In this document: piece by piece, positions 1,411-54,671 of the stretch
Layout: every line of letters starts with the position of its first letter
Numbering within the stretch: the stretch's first letter is position 1
Assembly: GCA_030595125.1 (NCBI GenBank)
Contig: JAUVDV010000026.1
Span: 1 to 61,911 of the forward strand
Origin: Deltaproteobacteria bacterium
Lineage (GTDB): Bacteria; Myxococcota_A; Polyangia; JAAYKL01
Length of the DNA: 61,911 nucleotides
Direction: 5' to 3'
Program-made: the position numbers and the translations under genes
The notes under the pieces: generated by a model
Databases searched by the model: none
Seen by the model: only the letters and a program-made list of their open reading frames with translations
What the model was told of the DNA's origin: nothing

Positions 1411-3086
<1,676 letters not shown>

Positions 3087-38703: not shown

Positions 38704-38710
38704 AAATGTT

Positions 38711-38893
38711 GCCCTCTGGGGTACTCGTTGCGCGGCGATTTTTTGTAATCCCGCTGTACCAAAACCCCGGGGACCGTCCCTTGCCGTGGTGTGCAAGCCG
38801 GTCATAACGAATCGGAAGCCTGAAGCGGTAATATGGACCCCACCTGCTGAGGACGCGGGGTTTTGACGCCAACGCTACGACACTGCGGAGGGC
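38711..38893 (+). ncRNA. ssrS: Probable 6S RNA (SsrS)
   Basis: The 183-nt segment has the size of 6S RNA. Its ends pair (GCCCTC 38711-38716 with GAGGGC 38888-38893), followed by eight T residues, so the closing stem doubles as terminator. Inside it, AAAACCCCG (38760-38768) pairs with CGGGGTTTT (38857-38865), framing a large internal loop with CAACGCTACGACACTGCGG on the 3' side. The apical part GAAGCCTGAAGCGGTAATA...GACCCCACC resembles 6S RNAs from deltaproteobacteria as I remember them. 6S RNA mimics open promoter DNA and binds sigma-70 RNA polymerase. The identification rests on length, architecture, own promoter and terminator; a covariance model was not run. Confidence 0.65.
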
Positions 38894-38958
38894 TTTTTTT
38901 TATCCGCTCACAACCTTAATTGACACTTGATACTCCGTAACACAAACTCATTTCCCTG

Positions 38959-45686: not shown

Positions 45687-47537
45687 CTAGTATATCCGCA
45701 CGGCGTCGAATTTACAGACGTCCTTGCAGATTCCGCACTTGATGCACTTCTCGTTGTCTATGACGTGAAGCTGTTTCTTTTCGCCGGCGATGCAGTTCTC
45801 GGGACATCGCTTGGCACACACCATGCATCCGTTGCAGTTGTCAGTAATCTCGTAAGTGATCAGTTCCTTGCACACCCCCGCCGGACAACGGTGATCATTC
45901 ACGTGCGCCATGTACTCGTCGCGGAAGTACTTCAGCGTTGAGAGCACCGGGTTCATCGCCGTGGTCCCCAGCGCACACAGCGAACCAGCCTCCACCGTGT
46001 CGCAGAGCTCCTCGATGAGCGAAATTGTTTCTTCCGTGCCCTTGCCCTCGCTGATATCGGTTACCAGCTCGTGGAGACGACGCAGACCCTCACGGCACGT
46101 GGTGCACTTGCCGCACGACTCGAACTTCAGGAACCCCAGGAAGTACTTGGCCACGTCGACCATGCACGTCTTGTCGTCCATGACGATCATGCCGCCGGAG
46201 CCCATCATGGACCCCTCTTCCCACAAGCTGTCGAAGTCCACCTTGAGATCCAGCTTGGACGCCGGCAGACAGCCGCCCGAAGGTCCGCCGGTCTGAACAG
46301 CCTTGAACTCGTTGCCGTCGGGAATGCCTCCGCCTATGTCGAAGATGATCTGTCGAAGGGTCATGCCCATCTCGGCTTCCACCAGCCCCGTGTTGTTCAC
46401 CTTGCCCACCAGCGAGAAGATTTTGGTGCCCGGAGAACCCTTGGTACCCTTGCTGATGTACCAGTCCGCGCCCTTATCGAGAATCAACGGGATGTTCGCG
46501 TACGTCTCCACGTTGTTCAGGTTGGTCGGCTTGTTGTGGAGACCTGCCACCACCGTGTGGATATGCTTCGCGCGAGGCTCGCCCACCTTGCCCTCGATGG
46601 ACGCCATCAACGCCGTGGACTCCCCGCACACGAACGCGCCGCCACCACGGTTGATTTTGATATTAAAGTCCAGGTCCGTGCCCAGAATCCCCTTGCCAAG
46701 GAATCCCCACTCCCGCGCCTGCGCGAGCGCTATGGTCAATCGCTCGATGGCCAGGGGATACTCGTGGCGCACATACACGTAGCCTTCGTCCGCCCCGATA
46801 GTGAACGCCGCTATTATCATCCCCTCGATCACCGCATGAGGATTGCCCTCCAGGATCGAGCGGTCCATGAACGCGCCCGGGTCGCCCTCGTCCGCGTTGC
46901 AGATGACGTAGCGCTTGTCCGACGGGGCATTCTTGCACGTCTCCCACTTTCGTCCTGCCGGGAATCCGCCGCCTCCGCGCCCGCGAACGTTGGCTTTCTT
47001 GACCTCCTCCAGCACCGCGTCCGGACCCAGCTCCAGCGCTTTTGTCAGGCCGTCGTATCCGCCCATGGCGATGTAGTCGTCGATACTCGTCGGGTCGATC
47101 TCCCCGTTTTTGCCCAGAATCAACCGCTCCTGATGCTTGTAGAACGGGATCTCGTGCTCGGTCTTGTAACGCTCTCCCGTGTTCGGCTCGTCGTAGAGAT
47201 GCTCCTCCAGAACCTCTCCGCCCTTCAGCGTCTTCTCCACGATCTCGGCCACAGCTTCCGGCTTCACTCGCTGGTACAACTGCTTTTCCGGATGCATCAG
47301 CACCAGCGTCCCGCGTTCGCAAAAACCGTGACAACCCGTCGGCTTGATCTCTATCTTGTCGCTCAAGCCCTGCTTCTCGATCTCCTCGCGAAACGCCGCA
47401 ACCACTTTGGGAGAACCGTACGCGTTGCAACCGGTGCCCGCGCAGATCGCCACAACCTTCTTGCCTTCTTTATTCTTCTTGTCGACAAGCTCTTCCCGGT
47501 AGGAGCGGAGCTTCGCACTATTCGAGATCAATGCCAT
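45687..47537 (-). CDS. NADH-binding flavoprotein subunit, NuoF/HndC type
   Basis: The start at 47537 overlaps the NuoE stop by one base and follows AAAGGAGG. The 616-residue protein has an N-terminal thioredoxin-like 2Fe-2S domain (CAGTGCNAYG, CHGFCERG), the FMN/NADH core (RGRGGGGFPAGRKWE, CNADEGDPGAFMDR), the SLBB domain, the 4Fe-4S site ESCGKCTTCREG, and two C-terminal 4Fe-4S clusters (CNGCMVCAKRCPENC, CIKCGICKDVC). This is the layout of bifurcating or diaphorase subunits (HydB, HndC), longer than complex I NuoF. It would transfer electrons between NAD(H) and iron-sulfur partners. Confidence 0.9.
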   Translation of the reverse strand: MALISNSAKLRSYREELVDKKNKEGKKVVAICAGTGCNAYGSPKVVAAFREEIEKQGLSDKIEIKPTGCHGFCERGTLVLMHPEKQLYQRVKPEAVAEIVEKTLKGGEVLEEHLYDEPNTGERYKTEHEIPFYKHQERLILGKNGEIDPTSIDDYIAMGGYDGLTKALELGPDAVLEEVKKANVRGRGGGGFPAGRKWETCKNAPSDKRYVICNADEGDPGAFMDRSILEGNPHAVIEGMIIAAFTIGADEGYVYVRHEYPLAIERLTIALAQAREWGFLGKGILGTDLDFNIKINRGGGAFVCGESTALMASIEGKVGEPRAKHIHTVVAGLHNKPTNLNNVETYANIPLILDKGADWYISKGTKGSPGTKIFSLVGKVNNTGLVEAEMGMTLRQIIFDIGGGIPDGNEFKAVQTGGPSGGCLPASKLDLKVDFDSLWEEGSMMGSGGMIVMDDKTCMVDVAKYFLGFLKFESCGKCTTCREGLRRLHELVTDISEGKGTEETISLIEELCDTVEAGSLCALGTTAMNPVLSTLKYFRDEYMAHVNDHRCPAGVCKELITYEITDNCNGCMVCAKRCPENCIAGEKKQLHVIDNEKCIKCGICKDVCKFDAVRIY

Positions 47538-48007
47538 CACTCGCCTCCTTTCCGGGTCTTGAGTTTCTTCACCGCCTTGGTCAGTCGCGTGGACGTCACG
47601 TTGCCGTGATATTCCCCATCGATGATCACCAGCGGACCGAGCGCGCACGCTCCGACACAGTTGACCTCCTCCAGCGTGAACTGCAGATCCTCCGTGGTCC
47701 CGCCGGACTTGACACTCAGATCCCTCTCCAGATGCTCCACCAACCGCTGGGCACCGCGCACGTGGCACGCTGTCCCCATACACACCGTGCAGATGTGCTT
47801 TCCGCGCGGCTCCAGGTGAAACGACTCGAAGAACGTCGCCATGGAGTAAATGCGCGACACCGGCACGTCCAGCTTCGCGGAGATGTGATTCACCGCTTCC
47901 CGGGGCAGGTAGTTCTCCTGGTCCTGAACATCCTGCATGATCGCCAGAAGCGAGGTTGCGTCACCATCGTAGTTCTCGATGATGGCGTCGACTTTCGTAA
48001 GATCCAT
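47537..48007 (-). CDS. NuoE-type 24-kDa 2Fe-2S subunit
   Basis: The 156-residue protein has the thioredoxin-like ferredoxin motif CMGTACHVRGAQ and CVGACALGP that ligate one 2Fe-2S cluster, with the NYLPREAVNHISAKL N-terminal helices of NuoE. It partners the NuoF-type subunit downstream. The gene overlaps both neighbours by 1 base (stop and start share a base on each side), a sign of tight coupling in the por/nuo operon. Confidence 0.9.
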   Translation of the reverse strand: MDLTKVDAIIENYDGDATSLLAIMQDVQDQENYLPREAVNHISAKLDVPVSRIYSMATFFESFHLEPRGKHICTVCMGTACHVRGAQRLVEHLERDLSVKSGGTTEDLQFTLEEVNCVGACALGPLVIIDGEYHGNVTSTRLTKAVKKLKTRKGGE

Positions 48008-48948
48008 CAGACTTCCTCCTCATGGGTCATCCGCACCTTGGCTTCGAGCCGCCGGTACTCCGCCCTGAGCCTGACCTCGATGTCGTCGATCACGTCGTCG
48101 GTCAGGTGCCTGAAACGCCCCTGGGGCTTGAGATAATCGCGCAACGCCCTGAACTCGGGCACGGACTGCGTGATCGTGTATTTCCCGTTTTCCACTTCGT
48201 AGAGAGGGAACACTCCCGTCTCCACTGCCAGGCGTCCAATCTGCACGGCCAGCTCCGGACGCATTCTCCAACCCGTGGGACAGGCCGAGTACACGTGCAG
48301 GTAGGCCGGACCTTCGACATCGGCTGCCTTGCGAACCTTCCGATGAAGATCGAATGGATAGCTGGGGCTGACTGTTGCGACGTAAGGAATGTTGTGAGCC
48401 GCCATGATCTCCGGCACGTTCTTCTTCCACGTCTGTTGCCCGATGCTGACCTTGCCGGCAGGGCTGGTCGTGGTGGAAGCGCCGAAGGGAGTAGCGCTCG
48501 AACGCTGAATTCCCGTGTTCATGTACGCCTCGTTGTCGTAACAGACGTAAATCATGTCGTGACCGCGTTCCATCGCCCCGGACACGAACTGGAGGCCGAT
48601 GTCAGCCGTTGCGCCGTCGCCGCCGTAACCCACGAAGTTGATCTTGCGTTTGGGATAACGACCCTTGCGCATGAGCGCCTTGTAACCGGCCTCTACCCCC
48701 GAAATCACAGAAGCCGGGTTCTCGAACGCCACGTGAATCCACGGGATTCGCCAGGCCGATTCCGGGTAGGGAGAGGTAATGATTTCCATGCACCCCGTGG
48801 CCGACGCAGCGATAGTGTTGCGACCAAGCTCCTTGTGGACCATTCGCATGGCGAGCACTTCCGCACATCCCTGGCACGCACGGTGGCCGGAACAGACGAA
48901 GTCCTCCGTCGGAAGGAGGCGGGAGGCAAAGACGTTAAGCTTTTCCAT
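48007..48948 (-). CDS. porB: Pyruvate/2-oxoacid:ferredoxin oxidoreductase, beta subunit
   Basis: The 313-residue protein has GHRACQGCAEVLAMR and the TPP-binding stretch YGGDGATADIGLQ with the later YDNEAYMNTGIQRS, as in PorB. Cys residues for one 4Fe-4S cluster are in CQGC, GCMEI and the late SACPTGWR. It binds thiamine diphosphate and, with alpha, gamma and delta subunits, decarboxylates pyruvate to acetyl-CoA with ferredoxin reduction. It overlaps porA by 14 bases. Confidence 0.93.
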   Translation of the reverse strand: MEKLNVFASRLLPTEDFVCSGHRACQGCAEVLAMRMVHKELGRNTIAASATGCMEIITSPYPESAWRIPWIHVAFENPASVISGVEAGYKALMRKGRYPKRKINFVGYGGDGATADIGLQFVSGAMERGHDMIYVCYDNEAYMNTGIQRSSATPFGASTTTSPAGKVSIGQQTWKKNVPEIMAAHNIPYVATVSPSYPFDLHRKVRKAADVEGPAYLHVYSACPTGWRMRPELAVQIGRLAVETGVFPLYEVENGKYTITQSVPEFRALRDYLKPQGRFRHLTDDVIDDIEVRLRAEYRRLEAKVRMTHEEEV

Positions 48949-50128
48949 AATGCCCTCCTCTCACCTGGATCAACTCGAACGGTGGTATGGGCGCCCCGCC
49001 CAGCACCTCCTTGCATCTGTCGAAGATCTGATCGAAATCGGAAAAATTGACGTCGCGCCCGCCGAGGCCGACCACAGTTTCCACAATCTTGGGGGCATGA
49101 TCCTGCCCGTAAAGCATGTACTTGATCTCCTGGGCCATCGGGCCACCGGGACCACCGGGAGAGAAGTGTCGATCCAGAACTCCGAGCACTTTCGCGCCGG
49201 CTATCGCCTTTTTGAAGTCGTCCACAGGGAGGGGCCGCCACATCCGGAAGCGCACGAGACCGACCTTCACGCCCTCGTCCCGGACCTTGTCCACCCAGGT
49301 CATGGCAGTCTCGGCGATGCCGCCCATCATGATGAGCAGGATCTCTGCGTCGTCCGTGCGATAGGTCTCCACCGGTTTGTATTTCCGACCAAACTCCTTT
49401 TCGAATTCGCCCATGATCTCCACCATGGGCTCGTAGGAGTTGCGAACCGCCCACTCGGCGGCCATCTTGGCCTCCGTGTACACCACCGGCATCCCCACGG
49501 GCCCCATGGTAATGGGATCGTCGATGTCGAGGCGTTGTTGCGGCTCGAAGTCCGGCAGGAACTTCTTGACCTCTTCGCGGGTGGGCATCTCTATGGGCTC
49601 GACCATATGGCTCAGAATGAACCCGTCGAAGTTGACCATCAGGGGAAGCAGGATCCGCTTGTCTTCCGATATTCGGTGACCCATGATCACCATGTCCACC
49701 GCCTCCTGACCATTCTCGGCGAAGACCTGGACCCAGCCCACATCGCGCTCGGTCATTACATCCGAGTGATCGTTCCAGATGCTGATGGGACCGGAGAGAG
49801 ACCTGTTGGCCACCACCATGACCATCGGCAACCTCAGGTTGGCCGCGATGAACAGGATCTCGTGCATCAACGCCAGGCCCTGGCTCGCAGTGGCTGTGAA
49901 TGTCCTCGCTCCCGCAGAGGCGCATCCGCAGCAACAGCTCATGGCTGCGTGCTCCGACTCCACCGGAATGAACTCCGCGTCGAGATCGCCGTCGGCGACG
50001 ATTTCGGAGAGATGCTCCACCACGTGTGTCTGTGGTGTGATGGGGTAAGCAGCGATGCAGTCTACATCACACGCCGAAGCGGCCTCGGCGATGGCGATGG
50101 AGACTTCCATTCCCTTTCGCTCGGCCAT
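48935..50128 (-). CDS. porA: Pyruvate/2-oxoacid:ferredoxin oxidoreductase, alpha subunit
   Basis: The 397-residue protein has the pyrimidine-binding domain with AYPITPQTHVVEHLSEIVA and the active-site Glu in VESEHAAMSCCCGCASAGA, followed by TATASQGLALMHEILFIAA. The C-terminal domain has GVLDRHFSPGGPGG. It is the standard four-subunit PorA type. The start at 50128 shares a base with the porD stop. Confidence 0.93.
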   Translation of the reverse strand: MAERKGMEVSIAIAEAASACDVDCIAAYPITPQTHVVEHLSEIVADGDLDAEFIPVESEHAAMSCCCGCASAGARTFTATASQGLALMHEILFIAANLRLPMVMVVANRSLSGPISIWNDHSDVMTERDVGWVQVFAENGQEAVDMVIMGHRISEDKRILLPLMVNFDGFILSHMVEPIEMPTREEVKKFLPDFEPQQRLDIDDPITMGPVGMPVVYTEAKMAAEWAVRNSYEPMVEIMGEFEKEFGRKYKPVETYRTDDAEILLIMMGGIAETAMTWVDKVRDEGVKVGLVRFRMWRPLPVDDFKKAIAGAKVLGVLDRHFSPGGPGGPMAQEIKYMLYGQDHAPKIVETVVGLGGRDVNFSDFDQIFDRCKEVLGGAPIPPFELIQVRGGHYGKA

Positions 50129-50421
50129 TATTCCTTCTCCTCTACCATCGAGATGCACACGGCCCAGCATTCGCAAACACAGATAGCGCAGCCCTTGCAG
50201 TATTCCATGTCGGCCTCAGGGTATCCGTCGGCGCGCATGGTGATACAGCCCTCCGGGCAAAATACGGCGCAAACACCGCACTTGATGCACTTATCCAGGT
50301 CCCAGACCGGTCCGCTGGAGCGCCAGTCGCCGGTACGCTGATACTTGGCAGAGCCCGGTTCCGTTATCGCGGTACCGAGGGCCATGTCTTGCCAATCCGG
50401 GGATGGGGATTGCTTGGGCAT
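50128..50421 (-). CDS. porD: Pyruvate:ferredoxin oxidoreductase, delta (ferredoxin) subunit
   Basis: GGAGG precedes the start at 50421. The 97-residue protein is a two-cluster ferredoxin subunit: CIKCGVCAVFCPEGC and CKGCAICVCECWAVC, each a 4Fe-4S site of the CxxCxxCxxxC type. It accepts electrons from the catalytic subunits and hands them to soluble ferredoxin or, here, possibly to the NuoE/F-type module encoded downstream. Confidence 0.9.
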   Translation of the reverse strand: MPKQSPSPDWQDMALGTAITEPGSAKYQRTGDWRSSGPVWDLDKCIKCGVCAVFCPEGCITMRADGYPEADMEYCKGCAICVCECWAVCISMVEEKE

Positions 50422-50431
50422 CCTGGACCTC

Positions 50432-50983
50432 CTATCCCTTTTCCACACAGCACTCTTCGTAAGCGCGGTTGAAAGCATTGATGTTACCCTCGGCAAGGCG
50501 CCCGAAACGCACTTTCAGCTCGTCGACGAGCAGCTCCCTCTCGATGACACCGGTTGCCCGTATCAGCGCGCCGAGCATGGTGGTGTTGGTGATCACCCGG
50601 CCGATCTCCTGTTCCGCGATGTGGTTGGCGTCCACGGTGATCAGTCTGCCCTTGAGATTGTACTCTTCTCGGATCTCGTCCGCGCTCCGCATGGTGTTGA
50701 CGACCTGGAGTCCGTCCTTTGAGAGTCCGTCCGAAGAATTGGCGATATGGAGGATATGGGGGTCGAGCACGACCACAGCGTCCGGGTTGGAGACTGCGGT
50801 CCTGTTTCGGATCTGCTTGTCGTCGATACGCGCAAAGGCCATGACCGGCGCGCCTCTTCGCTCCGGTCCGAAGCTCGGAAACGCCTGCGCGAATTTACCC
50901 TGCGCAATGGCTGCAAGAGCAATCAGCTCAGCCGAAGTAACAGCACCTTGACCACCGCGTCCGTGAAAACGGAGTTCGAGCAT
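50432..50983 (-). CDS. porG: Pyruvate:ferredoxin oxidoreductase, gamma subunit
   Basis: The 183-residue protein shows the gamma-subunit hallmark RFHGRGGQGAVTSAELIALA and FPSFGPERRGAPVMAF. It binds the CoA side of the reaction in the four-subunit enzymes. It is the first gene of the seven-gene operon, with GAGGAG just upstream and two inverted repeats 30-90 bases before the start. Confidence 0.92.
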   Translation of the reverse strand: MLELRFHGRGGQGAVTSAELIALAAIAQGKFAQAFPSFGPERRGAPVMAFARIDDKQIRNRTAVSNPDAVVVLDPHILHIANSSDGLSKDGLQVVNTMRSADEIREEYNLKGRLITVDANHIAEQEIGRVITNTTMLGALIRATGVIERELLVDELKVRFGRLAEGNINAFNRAYEECCVEKG

Positions 50984-51883: not shown

Positions 51884-52996
51884 TTGTTTCCATCCCCAAA
51901 GTGGCTGTTGGCGTTGACTCTGTTCGCGGCTTCGGCAAGCAGTTGCTGGTTGAGCCAGACGATACTGACGGAGCAATTGGTCGACGGCGGCGACGACTCC
52001 ACGGACACGGTGACGGACGGGTTGACGGATCCGGCGCCCGAGGGGCACTGGGAATGGCAGGTAGTGGACACGCCCACAGAACATCAGCTCACCGGGGTAT
52101 GGGGCAGCAGCAACACCGACGTCTACGCGGTCGGTAAATCCGCGACGATACTCCACTTCGACGGCGACGTCTGGTCCCTCATGGAGTACCCAGTCGGTGC
52201 GCCCGCCGGTAGTCTGGGCGATGTTACCGGCTCCCCCGAGGGAGACGAGGTTTACGCGGTGGGCACAGACGGCCTGTTCATCGCCTTCGACGGCGACACC
52301 TGGTTCGCGCCCCCCGAGGATACCGGCACGACCGAAAACCTGCACGACATCTGCCGGATCTCCGAAAACGAGATGTACGCGGTGGGCGACGAGGGAACCT
52401 TCATCGCGTTCGACGGATACTTCTGGGATCAAATCAACTCCGGAACCGACCGAAACCTCCTGTCGGCGTGGTGCCGGCCGGGCTCGGATGTATGGGCGGT
52501 GGGCCACCTCAACTATTCCGGCATGTCTACCACGGTGCTCAGATTCGACGGTGCCGTACAACTCGTCGATCATCCCGTGGGGCACTTCATGTACGCTGTC
52601 GGCGGCGCGGGATCAGTGGTTCGCATCGCCGGCATGTACGAGGAGTCGCAGGAGGTTGGACCGTATTTTTCCCTGCATACTTGGGGCGGTGGGGGATGGG
52701 AAGAAAACACGAACAACGAGGCGTTTATTCTGGGCATGTTCATCGTTGACAACGCGGACCTGACCACCTGGCTCGTGGGTTTCACAGAAGAGAACGAGGG
52801 CGGTATCAAACACCCGATCATTTACCGCTATCCAAGTACGGTGCTCGACGAGGATCCGCTCATTGTCGAGTACACCGATGAAACCGAAGTAACCCTCAGG
52901 GCCGTGTGGGCCGATGACAGCCAGGACAATGGGCGGGTTTTCGCCGTGGGAGATGCTGGCGCCATAGTCGTCGGAAGCTATATAATGGATTACTGA
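51884..52996 (+). CDS. Beta-propeller-like lipoprotein
   Basis: A TTG start with AGAGG upstream gives 370 residues with a lipoprotein signal (LTLFAASASSCW). The body repeats a motif of the form GVWGSSNTDVYAVG / EVYAVGTDGLFIAFDGDTW / EMYAVGDEGTFIAFDGYFW / DVWAVGHL about every 45 residues, as in photosystem-assembly-like and Kelch-like propellers of Myxococcota exported proteins. It is likely a surface protein. It starts 16 bases after the TPR lipoprotein, so the two may be co-expressed. Confidence 0.72.
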   Translation: MFPSPKWLLALTLFAASASSCWLSQTILTEQLVDGGDDSTDTVTDGLTDPAPEGHWEWQVVDTPTEHQLTGVWGSSNTDVYAVGKSATILHFDGDVWSLMEYPVGAPAGSLGDVTGSPEGDEVYAVGTDGLFIAFDGDTWFAPPEDTGTTENLHDICRISENEMYAVGDEGTFIAFDGYFWDQINSGTDRNLLSAWCRPGSDVWAVGHLNYSGMSTTVLRFDGAVQLVDHPVGHFMYAVGGAGSVVRIAGMYEESQEVGPYFSLHTWGGGGWEENTNNEAFILGMFIVDNADLTTWLVGFTEENEGGIKHPIIYRYPSTVLDEDPLIVEYTDETEVTLRAVWADDSQDNGRVFAVGDAGAIVVGSYIMDY

Positions 52997-53013
52997 TTCA
53001 AGGGAGGCGTACC

Positions 53014-53832
53014 ATGACTGTCAGAACAAGTACCGTGTTGCTGGTAACCCTGCTGACGACGATGCTCCTGGCCTGCAACGATGACAACGATTCCAACACG
53101 GACGCGGGCAGTGACACCGACACGGACGCCGACGCCGGCAACGATGCCGGACCGGAGATCGATCCTGCGGCCCCGTTCGCTCTGTGGGAACTGTTCACCT
53201 CCGAGGGATGACTGTACTGTAACGCTGCGGACGCAGCGCTGGCAGACGCTCTGGAAAACTATCCGGACCAGCGGTTCTTCCCCATCGCCTGGCATGTCGA
53301 TTACTGGAACCAATACGGCTGGGTCGATCCCTTCTCCAGCGCGGAGTTCACAGCGCGCCAGGAGCGCTTTGCCATCGCCCTTGGGCAATCCAGCCTCTAC
53401 ACGCCCCAGACGTTGGTCAACCTCGTGGAGCTATCCAGCTACACCGCAAGCCACATCTACACCGTGATGGAAGGGGCTCTGGAAACCGAGGTCGACACAT
53501 CGGTGACCCTCTTTTTGGATTCCGAACCGGACGCATCGAAGGTCATCGTAAATTACCTTGTCGATGGCGCGCCCACCGGGACAGAGCTGACGATCGTTCT
53601 GGTCGAGCGAGGCCTCACCTCACACCCCACCGGAGGCGAAAACGCCGGCGAGGATCTCACTCACGAAAACGTCGCCCGTGTTTTCACTACAATCGAAGGA
53701 GATCTCTCGAGCGGCCAGATCCAGCTTGATGTCGCCGGGGAAGTGCTCCTCGAAAACTGCTCCATCATAGGCTTCGTCCAGAACTCAACGACACTCCAAT
53801 ACTTCGGCGCCACCGCCGTCAACGCGATCTGA
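53014..53832 (+). CDS. DUF1223 thioredoxin-like lipoprotein, selenoprotein candidate (UxxC)
   Basis: The frame has a lipoprotein signal (TLLTTMLLACNDD), a short Asp-Thr linker and the DUF1223 start FALWELFTSEG. A TGA follows at 53209-53211 (codon 66) and the same frame goes on LYCNAADAALADAL, then WHVDYWNQYGWVDPFSSAEF, LYTPQTLVN, all diagnostic of DUF1223. In that family the motif is ELFTSxGCSxCPPAD, so TGA replaces the first Cys of the redox pair, giving ULYC. A hairpin starts 11 bases after the TGA. With read-through the protein has 272 residues. The remainder is undisturbed to its own stop, and the K+ channel gene follows after 11 bases. Sec insertion is the best explanation. Confidence 0.82.
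53223..53238 (+). promoter_or_regulatory. Putative bacterial SECIS hairpin after the DUF1223 TGA
   Basis: CGCTGC (53223-53228) pairs with GCAGCG (53233-53238) around the loop GGAC (53229-53232), 17-20 nt after the TGA. A short stem with a G-G start to the loop resembles the E. coli fdhF element (loop GGUC). Confidence 0.6.
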
Positions 53833-53843
53833 AGGAGCACCCC

Positions 53844-54671
53844 ATGTCGAGCGCGGAGAACAACAGGCCTCTTTCAGCATGGCAGATCAAGATGCACGAG
53901 GTCATTTTCGAGGCGGATACCGCTCCGGGTAAGTTATTCGACGTCTTGCTTATCCTCAGCATCCTCGCCAGCGTGGTAGTGGTCATGCTCGACAGCGTCA
54001 CCTGGTTCAACGAGCGCTACGGAACGCTGCTGTACACGCTGGAGTGGGCCTTCACCATCTTGTTCACTGTAGAGTACGGCCTCCGCCTGAGCTGCGTCGG
54101 GCGACCATTGCGCTACGCAACAAGCTTCTTCGGGGTGGTGGACCTGCTCGCGGTGATCCCGACCTATCTCAGCCTGGTGCTCGCGGGTAGCCAGTACATG
54201 CTGGTCATCCGCATCCTGCGCATTCTGCGCATCTTCCGGGTGCTCAAGCTGGTCAACTATTTAAGAGAAGCGGCGACGCTCGCCCGTGCTCTGCGCGACA
54301 GTCGTCGCAAGATCACCGTCTTTATCTTTGGCGTTTTCACGCTGGTCGTCATCTTCGGTTCGTTGATGTACGTCATCGAAGGGAAAGCGAGCGGCTTCAC
54401 CTCCATTCCACGCAGCATCTACTGGGCGGTTGTCACCATGACCACCGTGGGCTACGGAGATATCTCGCCTCAGACGAACCTGGGCCAGCTATTCTCGGCG
54501 ATGGTGATGATTCTCGGATACTCGATTATCGCCGTGCCCACCGGGATCATCACAGCGCAACTGGTTCGCGATCGCAATGTCAAGGTTTCCACCCAGGCCT
54601 GCTCCAGTTGCAGCGGCGAGGGTCACGACCCCGACGCAAAACACTGCAAGCACTGTGGCGCCGCCCTCTGA
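53844..54671 (+). CDS. Voltage-gated potassium channel (Kv type)
   Basis: The 275-residue protein has six hydrophobic segments, an S4-like helix with regularly spaced Arg (RILRILRIFRVLKL), a pore helix and the K+ selectivity filter TMTTVGYGD. The C-terminus carries a four-Cys zinc ribbon (CSSCSGEG ... CKHCG). The layout is that of bacterial Kv channels such as KvAP-like proteins. It probably controls membrane potential. It is 11 bases after the DUF1223 gene and may share its transcript. Confidence 0.88.
   Translation: MSSAENNRPLSAWQIKMHEVIFEADTAPGKLFDVLLILSILASVVVVMLDSVTWFNERYGTLLYTLEWAFTILFTVEYGLRLSCVGRPLRYATSFFGVVDLLAVIPTYLSLVLAGSQYMLVIRILRILRIFRVLKLVNYLREAATLARALRDSRRKITVFIFGVFTLVVIFGSLMYVIEGKASGFTSIPRSIYWAVVTMTTVGYGDISPQTNLGQLFSAMVMILGYSIIAVPTGIITAQLVRDRNVKVSTQACSSCSGEGHDPDAKHCKHCGAAL

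Follow-up and report, generated by a model that had tools for sequence, protein, structure and literature searches.

The DUF1223 gene at positions 53014–53832 of a deltaproteobacterial contig is predicted to encode an exported lipoprotein with a thioredoxin fold and a Sec66-x-x-Cys69 motif, in which selenocysteine (Sec) would be inserted at an internal UGA codon by means of a downstream hairpin, and which would act as an envelope-anchored selenol/thiol oxidoreductase; we assign this reading a probability of about 0.92. It is supported by several computational lines: the Sec machinery of the genome, the conservation of the TGA codon, a bSECIS-type hairpin, purifying selection, the fold and the redox motif. 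Since a UGA is found at the same codon in several lineages and the Sec machinery in all of them, the gene almost certainly encodes a membrane-anchored selenoprotein, in a family that had not been listed among selenoproteins. The window, which is the whole stretch of DNA that was analysed (61,911 nt), is one contig of a metagenome-derived assembly (5.39 Mb, 95% complete, 203 contigs).

The DUF1223 gene and its internal UGA codon

The features of the locus are as follows.

51884–52996 (+), lipoprotein-like gene, 17 nt upstream of the Sec-DUF1223 gene; present in both congeners, there with a two-gene insert between
53001–53007 (+), probable ribosome-binding site AGGGAGG, 6 nt 5' of the ATG, read directly from the sequence
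53014–53832 (+), Sec-DUF1223 gene, 272 residues including the predicted Sec66, with its terminal TGA at 53830–53832
53065–53076 (+), lipobox Leu-Leu-Ala-Cys21 behind a hydrophobic leader, with Asn at +2, identified by eye; LLAC and LLSC occupy the same place in the congeners
53209–53211 (+), TGA codon of the predicted selenocysteine 66, position 1 of the U-x-x-C motif; invariably Cys or TGA in 39 aligned homologues and TGA in seven genomes
53217–53245 (+), possible lower stem (53217–53220 with 53242–53245) that lengthens the hairpin in the minimum-free-energy fold
53218–53220 (+), codon of Cys69, the second (resolving) Cys of UxxC; invariant column
53223–53238 (+), candidate bSECIS hairpin with a 6 bp stem (CGCTGC/GCAGCG), loop GGAC and a UGA-to-loop distance of 17 nt
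53293–53307 (+), family hallmark HVDYW, 3' of the TGA; His94 and Tyr97 invariant, Val95, Asp96 and Trp98 nearly so
53401–53406 (+), Thr130-Pro131, where the cis-Pro loop of a thioredoxin fold faces the redox motif; both invariant, with strand 132–135 just after in the model
53844–54671 (+), gene for an ion channel of the voltage-gated type (PF00520/PF07885), 11 nt downstream of the Sec-DUF1223 gene; order kept in both congeners

The frame reads MTVRTS...LLAC/NDDN...APFALWELFTSEG-TGA-LYC...NAI-TGA and contains a single internal TGA. With Sec written in, the region of the redox motif is ELFTSEG-U-LYCNAADAALADALENYPDQR. When the TGA is read as a residue, the translation matches PF06764 (DUF1223) with 131.5 bits (cut-off 30.7, E 5e-38) over profile positions 3–202 of 202. 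The first-pass annotation had described a DUF1223 lipoprotein in which an in-frame TGA replaces the first Cys of ELFTSxGCxxC, and whose frame continues beyond that codon with the family hallmarks and no other lesion. This description stands, in view of the match to 200 of the 202 profile positions, the lipobox LLAC at residues 18–21, the Cys/TGA alignment column, and the HVDYW and Thr-Pro motifs on the far side of the TGA. Of the CxxC pair that characterizes the family, the second Cys is invariant and the first is the TGA/Sec position. The leader and lipobox point to lipidation and an envelope location, and Thr130-Pro131 probably supplies the residues of the cis-Pro loop. Among the many open frames returned by a scan of the window for further TGA interruptions, no second UxxC candidate was recognizable.

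Conservation of the TGA codon and the selenocysteine machinery

A homologue search that covered the class (318 genomes) and the phylum (379 genomes) of the source organism found DUF1223 in many genera. The codon of the first Cys is TGA in seven genomes, listed here with the motif and, for each lineage, the hairpin stem/loop, the UGA-to-loop distance and the hairpin p value against synonymous-codon shuffles.

G000 (source genome), ULYC; CGCTGC/GGAC, 17 nt, p 0.083
G002 and G001 (congeners; L047, L048), ULYC; CGCCGC/GGAC, 17 nt
G029 (L049), USSC; GACCGC/GGAC, 17 nt, p 0.038
G247 (L051), USSC; CACCTGC/GGA, 17 nt, p 0.0012
G248 (L079), USSC; CCGACAC/GGTC, 23 nt, p 0.042
G569 (L110, another class), UHSC; CAGCTGA/GGA, 20 nt, p 0.00075

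The congeners (87–90% identical), which are the two closest sequenced relatives, both keep the TGA; the first-pass annotation had held that TGC in closely related strains would refute its reading. Their further loci L076 and L077 belong to the same genomes (G002 and G001, respectively), which were counted once. Outside the genus of the source genome, TGA occurs in three more distant genera (G247 and G248 carry the same genus label). Every other motif-bearing homologue that was read has Cys at this position, and the column is invariant in the 39-sequence alignment when TGA is written as C. An in-frame TGA is therefore aligned with a conserved Cys in a family with both TGA and Cys members, which is the pattern that the proposed alignment of DUF1223 homologues was meant to bring out.

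The TGA is one base from TGC or TGT and comes from a metagenome assembly in 203 contigs, so that a sequencing error, a nonsense mutation or a fresh pseudogene has to be considered. This explanation is extremely improbable. Six other assemblies carry TGA at the same codon, two of them in the source genus and four spread over three further genera, and none of the seven TGA-bearing genes contains a second in-frame stop. The codon is not an isolated lesion, because seven genomes share it and the other motif-bearing homologues that were read have Cys in its place. In addition, the codons 3' of the TGA in the three congeners give dS 0.25–0.37, dN 0.06–0.07 and dN/dS 0.17–0.28, whereas the dN/dS of a pseudogene would be near 1; the sequence downstream of the TGA is under purifying selection.

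The source genome contains a tRNA-Sec (61.9 bits, above the gathering score; anticodon tca, UCA, by ARAGORN), SelB (351 bits, cut-off 242), SelA (456 bits) and SelD (389 bits), the latter two above their curated cut-offs. These four components together are the set expected of a bacterium that makes selenoproteins. Two other selenoprotein genes of this genome carry an in-frame TGA: selD itself (L044, contig C43 of G000) at its known Sec site (VVGSG-U-ASKLGP), and a peroxiredoxin gene (L115, contig C8) at the catalytic position (GDFTFV-U-PTEL). On the strength of the four components and these two genes, the source organism almost certainly decodes Sec actively. The first-pass annotation had called for a search for selA, selB, selC and selD and held that a lack of selB or selC would speak against a Sec codon; as all four are present, this objection falls. 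Among the relatives, tRNA-Sec scores above the gathering threshold in 7/7 TGA genomes, and SelB exceeds its cut-off in all six of the TGA genomes scored, compared with 25 of 51 genomes with the Cys form (Fisher p 0.02).

Two genomes contain a Sec copy of DUF1223 together with a Cys copy (L079 and L050 in G248; L110 and L102 in G569) and offer a natural test of what selenium adds. In the maximum-likelihood tree the Sec sequences fall in one region, with the Cys copies of these two genomes interspersed, and the topology requires at least three Sec/Cys changes, such as a single gain with two losses. We tentatively consider, at somewhat below even odds, that this is an old selenoprotein lineage in which Sec-DUF1223 emerged in one or a few events among the ancestors of at least two classes of the phylum and repeatedly reverted to, or was kept beside, the Cys form, the protein serving as an outer-envelope selenoperoxidase or disulfide reductase that guards the cell surface.

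The bSECIS-type hairpin

The stem-loop CGCTGC-GGAC-GCAGCG, which the first-pass annotation had placed 11 nt past the TGA and regarded as a bSECIS, is confirmed at 53223–53238. The minimum-free-energy fold of 53209–53245 has an energy of −13.7 kcal/mol. In the published bSECIS model, the stem has 4–16 bp, the loop has 3–9 nt with a G in its first two positions, the UGA-to-loop distance is 16–37 nt and the energy is at most −7.5 kcal/mol (PMC13188914). The window hairpin (6 bp, GGAC, 17 nt, −9.3 kcal/mol) conforms to this model, as do those of all five lineages; no known Rfam element was found at the hairpin. The strength of the hairpin in the window taken alone is ordinary compared with shuffled sequences (z of about −1.2 to −1.4 for dinucleotide shuffles; p 0.16 or 0.08 for synonymous shuffles, not significant in either case) and was rejected as evidence. 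The assignment as a bSECIS thus holds for its fit to the published model and its recurrence in five lineages, and not for the significance of the single hairpin.

In all lineages the loop opens with GG and lies 17–23 nt past the UGA. A hairpin at or below −7.5 kcal/mol is present in 5/5 Sec lineages and in 3/43 Cys homologues (p 3e-5). A first test, in which the only demand on the loop was a G in its first two positions, gave p values of 0.164, 0.040, 0.004 and 0.032 for four lineages. A second test applied the published model's G[G/U] loop pattern and added the fifth lineage; it agrees with the first in direction and is less independent, because the loop pattern was picked after the loops had been seen. 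The combined p of the five lineages against synonymous-codon shuffles is 1.7e-6, an approximate value because the lineages were taken as independent although G247 and G248 carry the same genus label and ancestry is partly common. In the register common to G000, G002, G001 and G029, three of the six pairs are doubly compensated and none is broken. Where G000 has a U-A pair and its congeners have C-G, neither of the two codon changes (GCT/GCC and GCA/GCG) alters the amino acid; the covariation signal is limited, because the conserved residues AADA fix part of the hairpin.

Insertion of Sec in the DUF1223 gene is a prediction, which leaves room for a read-through of the UGA that does not involve the Sec pathway, through a suppressor tRNA or near-cognate insertion of Trp or Cys. 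We regard this as very improbable. UGA is a working stop in this organism, because the DUF1223 gene itself terminates with TGA, and the internal TGA occurs only where other homologues have Cys, only in genomes with tRNA-Sec, and together with a bSECIS-type hairpin. The initial reading of the codon as a Sec codon with a bSECIS is supported by the machinery, the TGA-bearing relatives and the hairpins of several lineages. In the mechanism that we propose, SelB and Sec-tRNA(Sec) would bind the hairpin at 53223–53238 and Sec would be put in at the UGA; in the absence of selenium, translation would stop after 65 residues. The full-length product would be exported and lipidated at Cys21, which would anchor it in the envelope. 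Sec66 would then attack an oxidized substrate, either a peroxide or a disulfide of a protein, after which the selenenyl-sulfide would be resolved by Cys69.

Fold, genomic context and relation to known systems

The AlphaFold2 model built on the 39-sequence alignment (pLDDT 88.9, pTM 0.81) contains a strand (residues 56–62), the UxxC motif and a helix (residues 69–82) in a thioredoxin-like order. Its best match in the PDB is a DUF1223 structure, 2axo (E 5.6e-15, TM 0.72 by target); Omp28 and thioredoxin-like domains come next. DUF1223 has been assigned to the thioredoxin-like clan (PMC3091736). The fold bears on the further possibility that the UGA is a true stop, which would yield a 65-residue lipoprotein or, after a downstream restart, a separate domain. 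Mechanical ORF finding does return a TTG-started ORF at 53413–53832. Such a stop, however, would cut one compact domain between strand 1 and helix 1, inside the redox motif, and family-invariant residues are located on both sides of the UGA; the restart ORF would be without the redox helix. We consider a true stop exceedingly improbable.

The redox role of the DUF1223 family is poorly known. The one homologue found to have been studied genetically is SrlA of Sinorhizobium meliloti. The bacterium needs it to tolerate H2O2 and cumene hydroperoxide and to grow on salt plates; its C61S variant in the CXXC motif still complements the salt phenotype and is affected only in autorepression, which is diminished (PMC9561847). 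The Sec-DUF1223 protein probably protects against peroxide, by analogy with this Cys homologue, which is needed for H2O2 tolerance. The model and this analogy suggest an envelope-anchored UxxC selenol/thiol oxidoreductase that serves in protection or sensing, with the fold and the motif pointing to the oxidoreductase activity. A selenoprotein that is not a disulfide or peroxide enzyme, such as a redox sensor of the envelope state or a chaperone for metals or metalloids, appears unlikely but deserves consideration: the change of the CXXC Cys in SrlA cut autorepression and left salt tolerance intact, which suggests sensing (PMC9561847), whereas UxxC in a thioredoxin fold is a usual arrangement of redox selenoproteins (PMC13188914, Table 1).

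The Sec-DUF1223 gene is probably cotranscribed with the upstream lipoprotein-like gene, and probably also with the downstream ion-channel gene. The latter neighbour hints at envelope stress and is not evidence of function. Scans of the locus for promoters and terminators gave no signal above chance. In the congeners, a two-gene module (2106–2971, minus strand, in L076; 2106–2875, minus strand, in L077) that looks like a HEPN/nucleotidyltransferase (MNT) toxin–antitoxin pair lies between the lipoprotein-like and Sec-DUF1223 genes; in the window this site is empty (a 17 nt gap, 52997–53013). The congener records are the MAGs CSMAG_2956 and CSMAG_220, and a cold-seep origin is likely for them because genomes in a catalogue from cold seeps are named in this way (PMC10491686). 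Elsewhere, the window contains a 6S RNA (38710–38895, + strand; Rfam RF00013, 72.6 bits) and, at 47537–50983 on the minus strand, a cluster whose translations resemble a multi-subunit 2-oxoacid:ferredoxin oxidoreductase and, next to it, a NuoE-like subunit; the cluster suggests that metabolism is anaerobic.

The 2026 inventory of prokaryotic selenoproteins, with 119 families or subfamilies (PMC13188914), does not include DUF1223 (PF06764), no selenoprotein model of NCBIfam (June 2026) matches, and the openly searchable literature, which excludes subscription papers, yielded no text joining DUF1223 with a selenoprotein. The impression of the first-pass annotation that a Sec form of DUF1223 was undescribed holds within these three sources, and Sec-DUF1223 is therefore a new family among the many known thioredoxin-fold UxxC selenoproteins. 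It adds one family to the ∼119 catalogued, in a phylum with almost no selenoprotein data in the searchable literature. Cells pay for Sec only where the chemistry benefits, and its use here singles out the first Cys of the poorly understood DUF1223 redox motif as important for catalysis. Standard annotation would cut the DUF1223 gene to 65 residues in such genomes.

With the DUF1223 proteins known to date (2axo/Atu2684 and SrlA, the latter 58% identical to the protein of 2axo), the window protein shares the fold, the ELFTSxGCxxC, HVDYW, TP and GEN hallmarks, and export (sequence E 3.8e-15 to 2axo). It differs from other DUF1223 members in having a UGA/Sec codon, with a bSECIS behind it, in place of the first Cys, and in being a predicted lipoprotein with an acidic D/T-rich linker. 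The Omp28 outer-membrane lipoproteins (PF11551/NF033782) are related, exported and of similar fold (2r2c), but the window protein scores below both curated cut-offs (23.7 against a gathering cut-off of 34.9 bits for PF11551; 22.9 against 150 for NF033782). The thioredoxin-fold UxxC selenoproteins (Sec-Trx, Sec-DsbA/DsbG-like and TlpA/thiol-disulfide isomerase-like; PMC13188914, Table 1) likewise carry the attacking Sec as the N-terminal residue of a UxxC motif that starts helix 1; DUF1223 differs from them as a separate family, outside the 119 listed.
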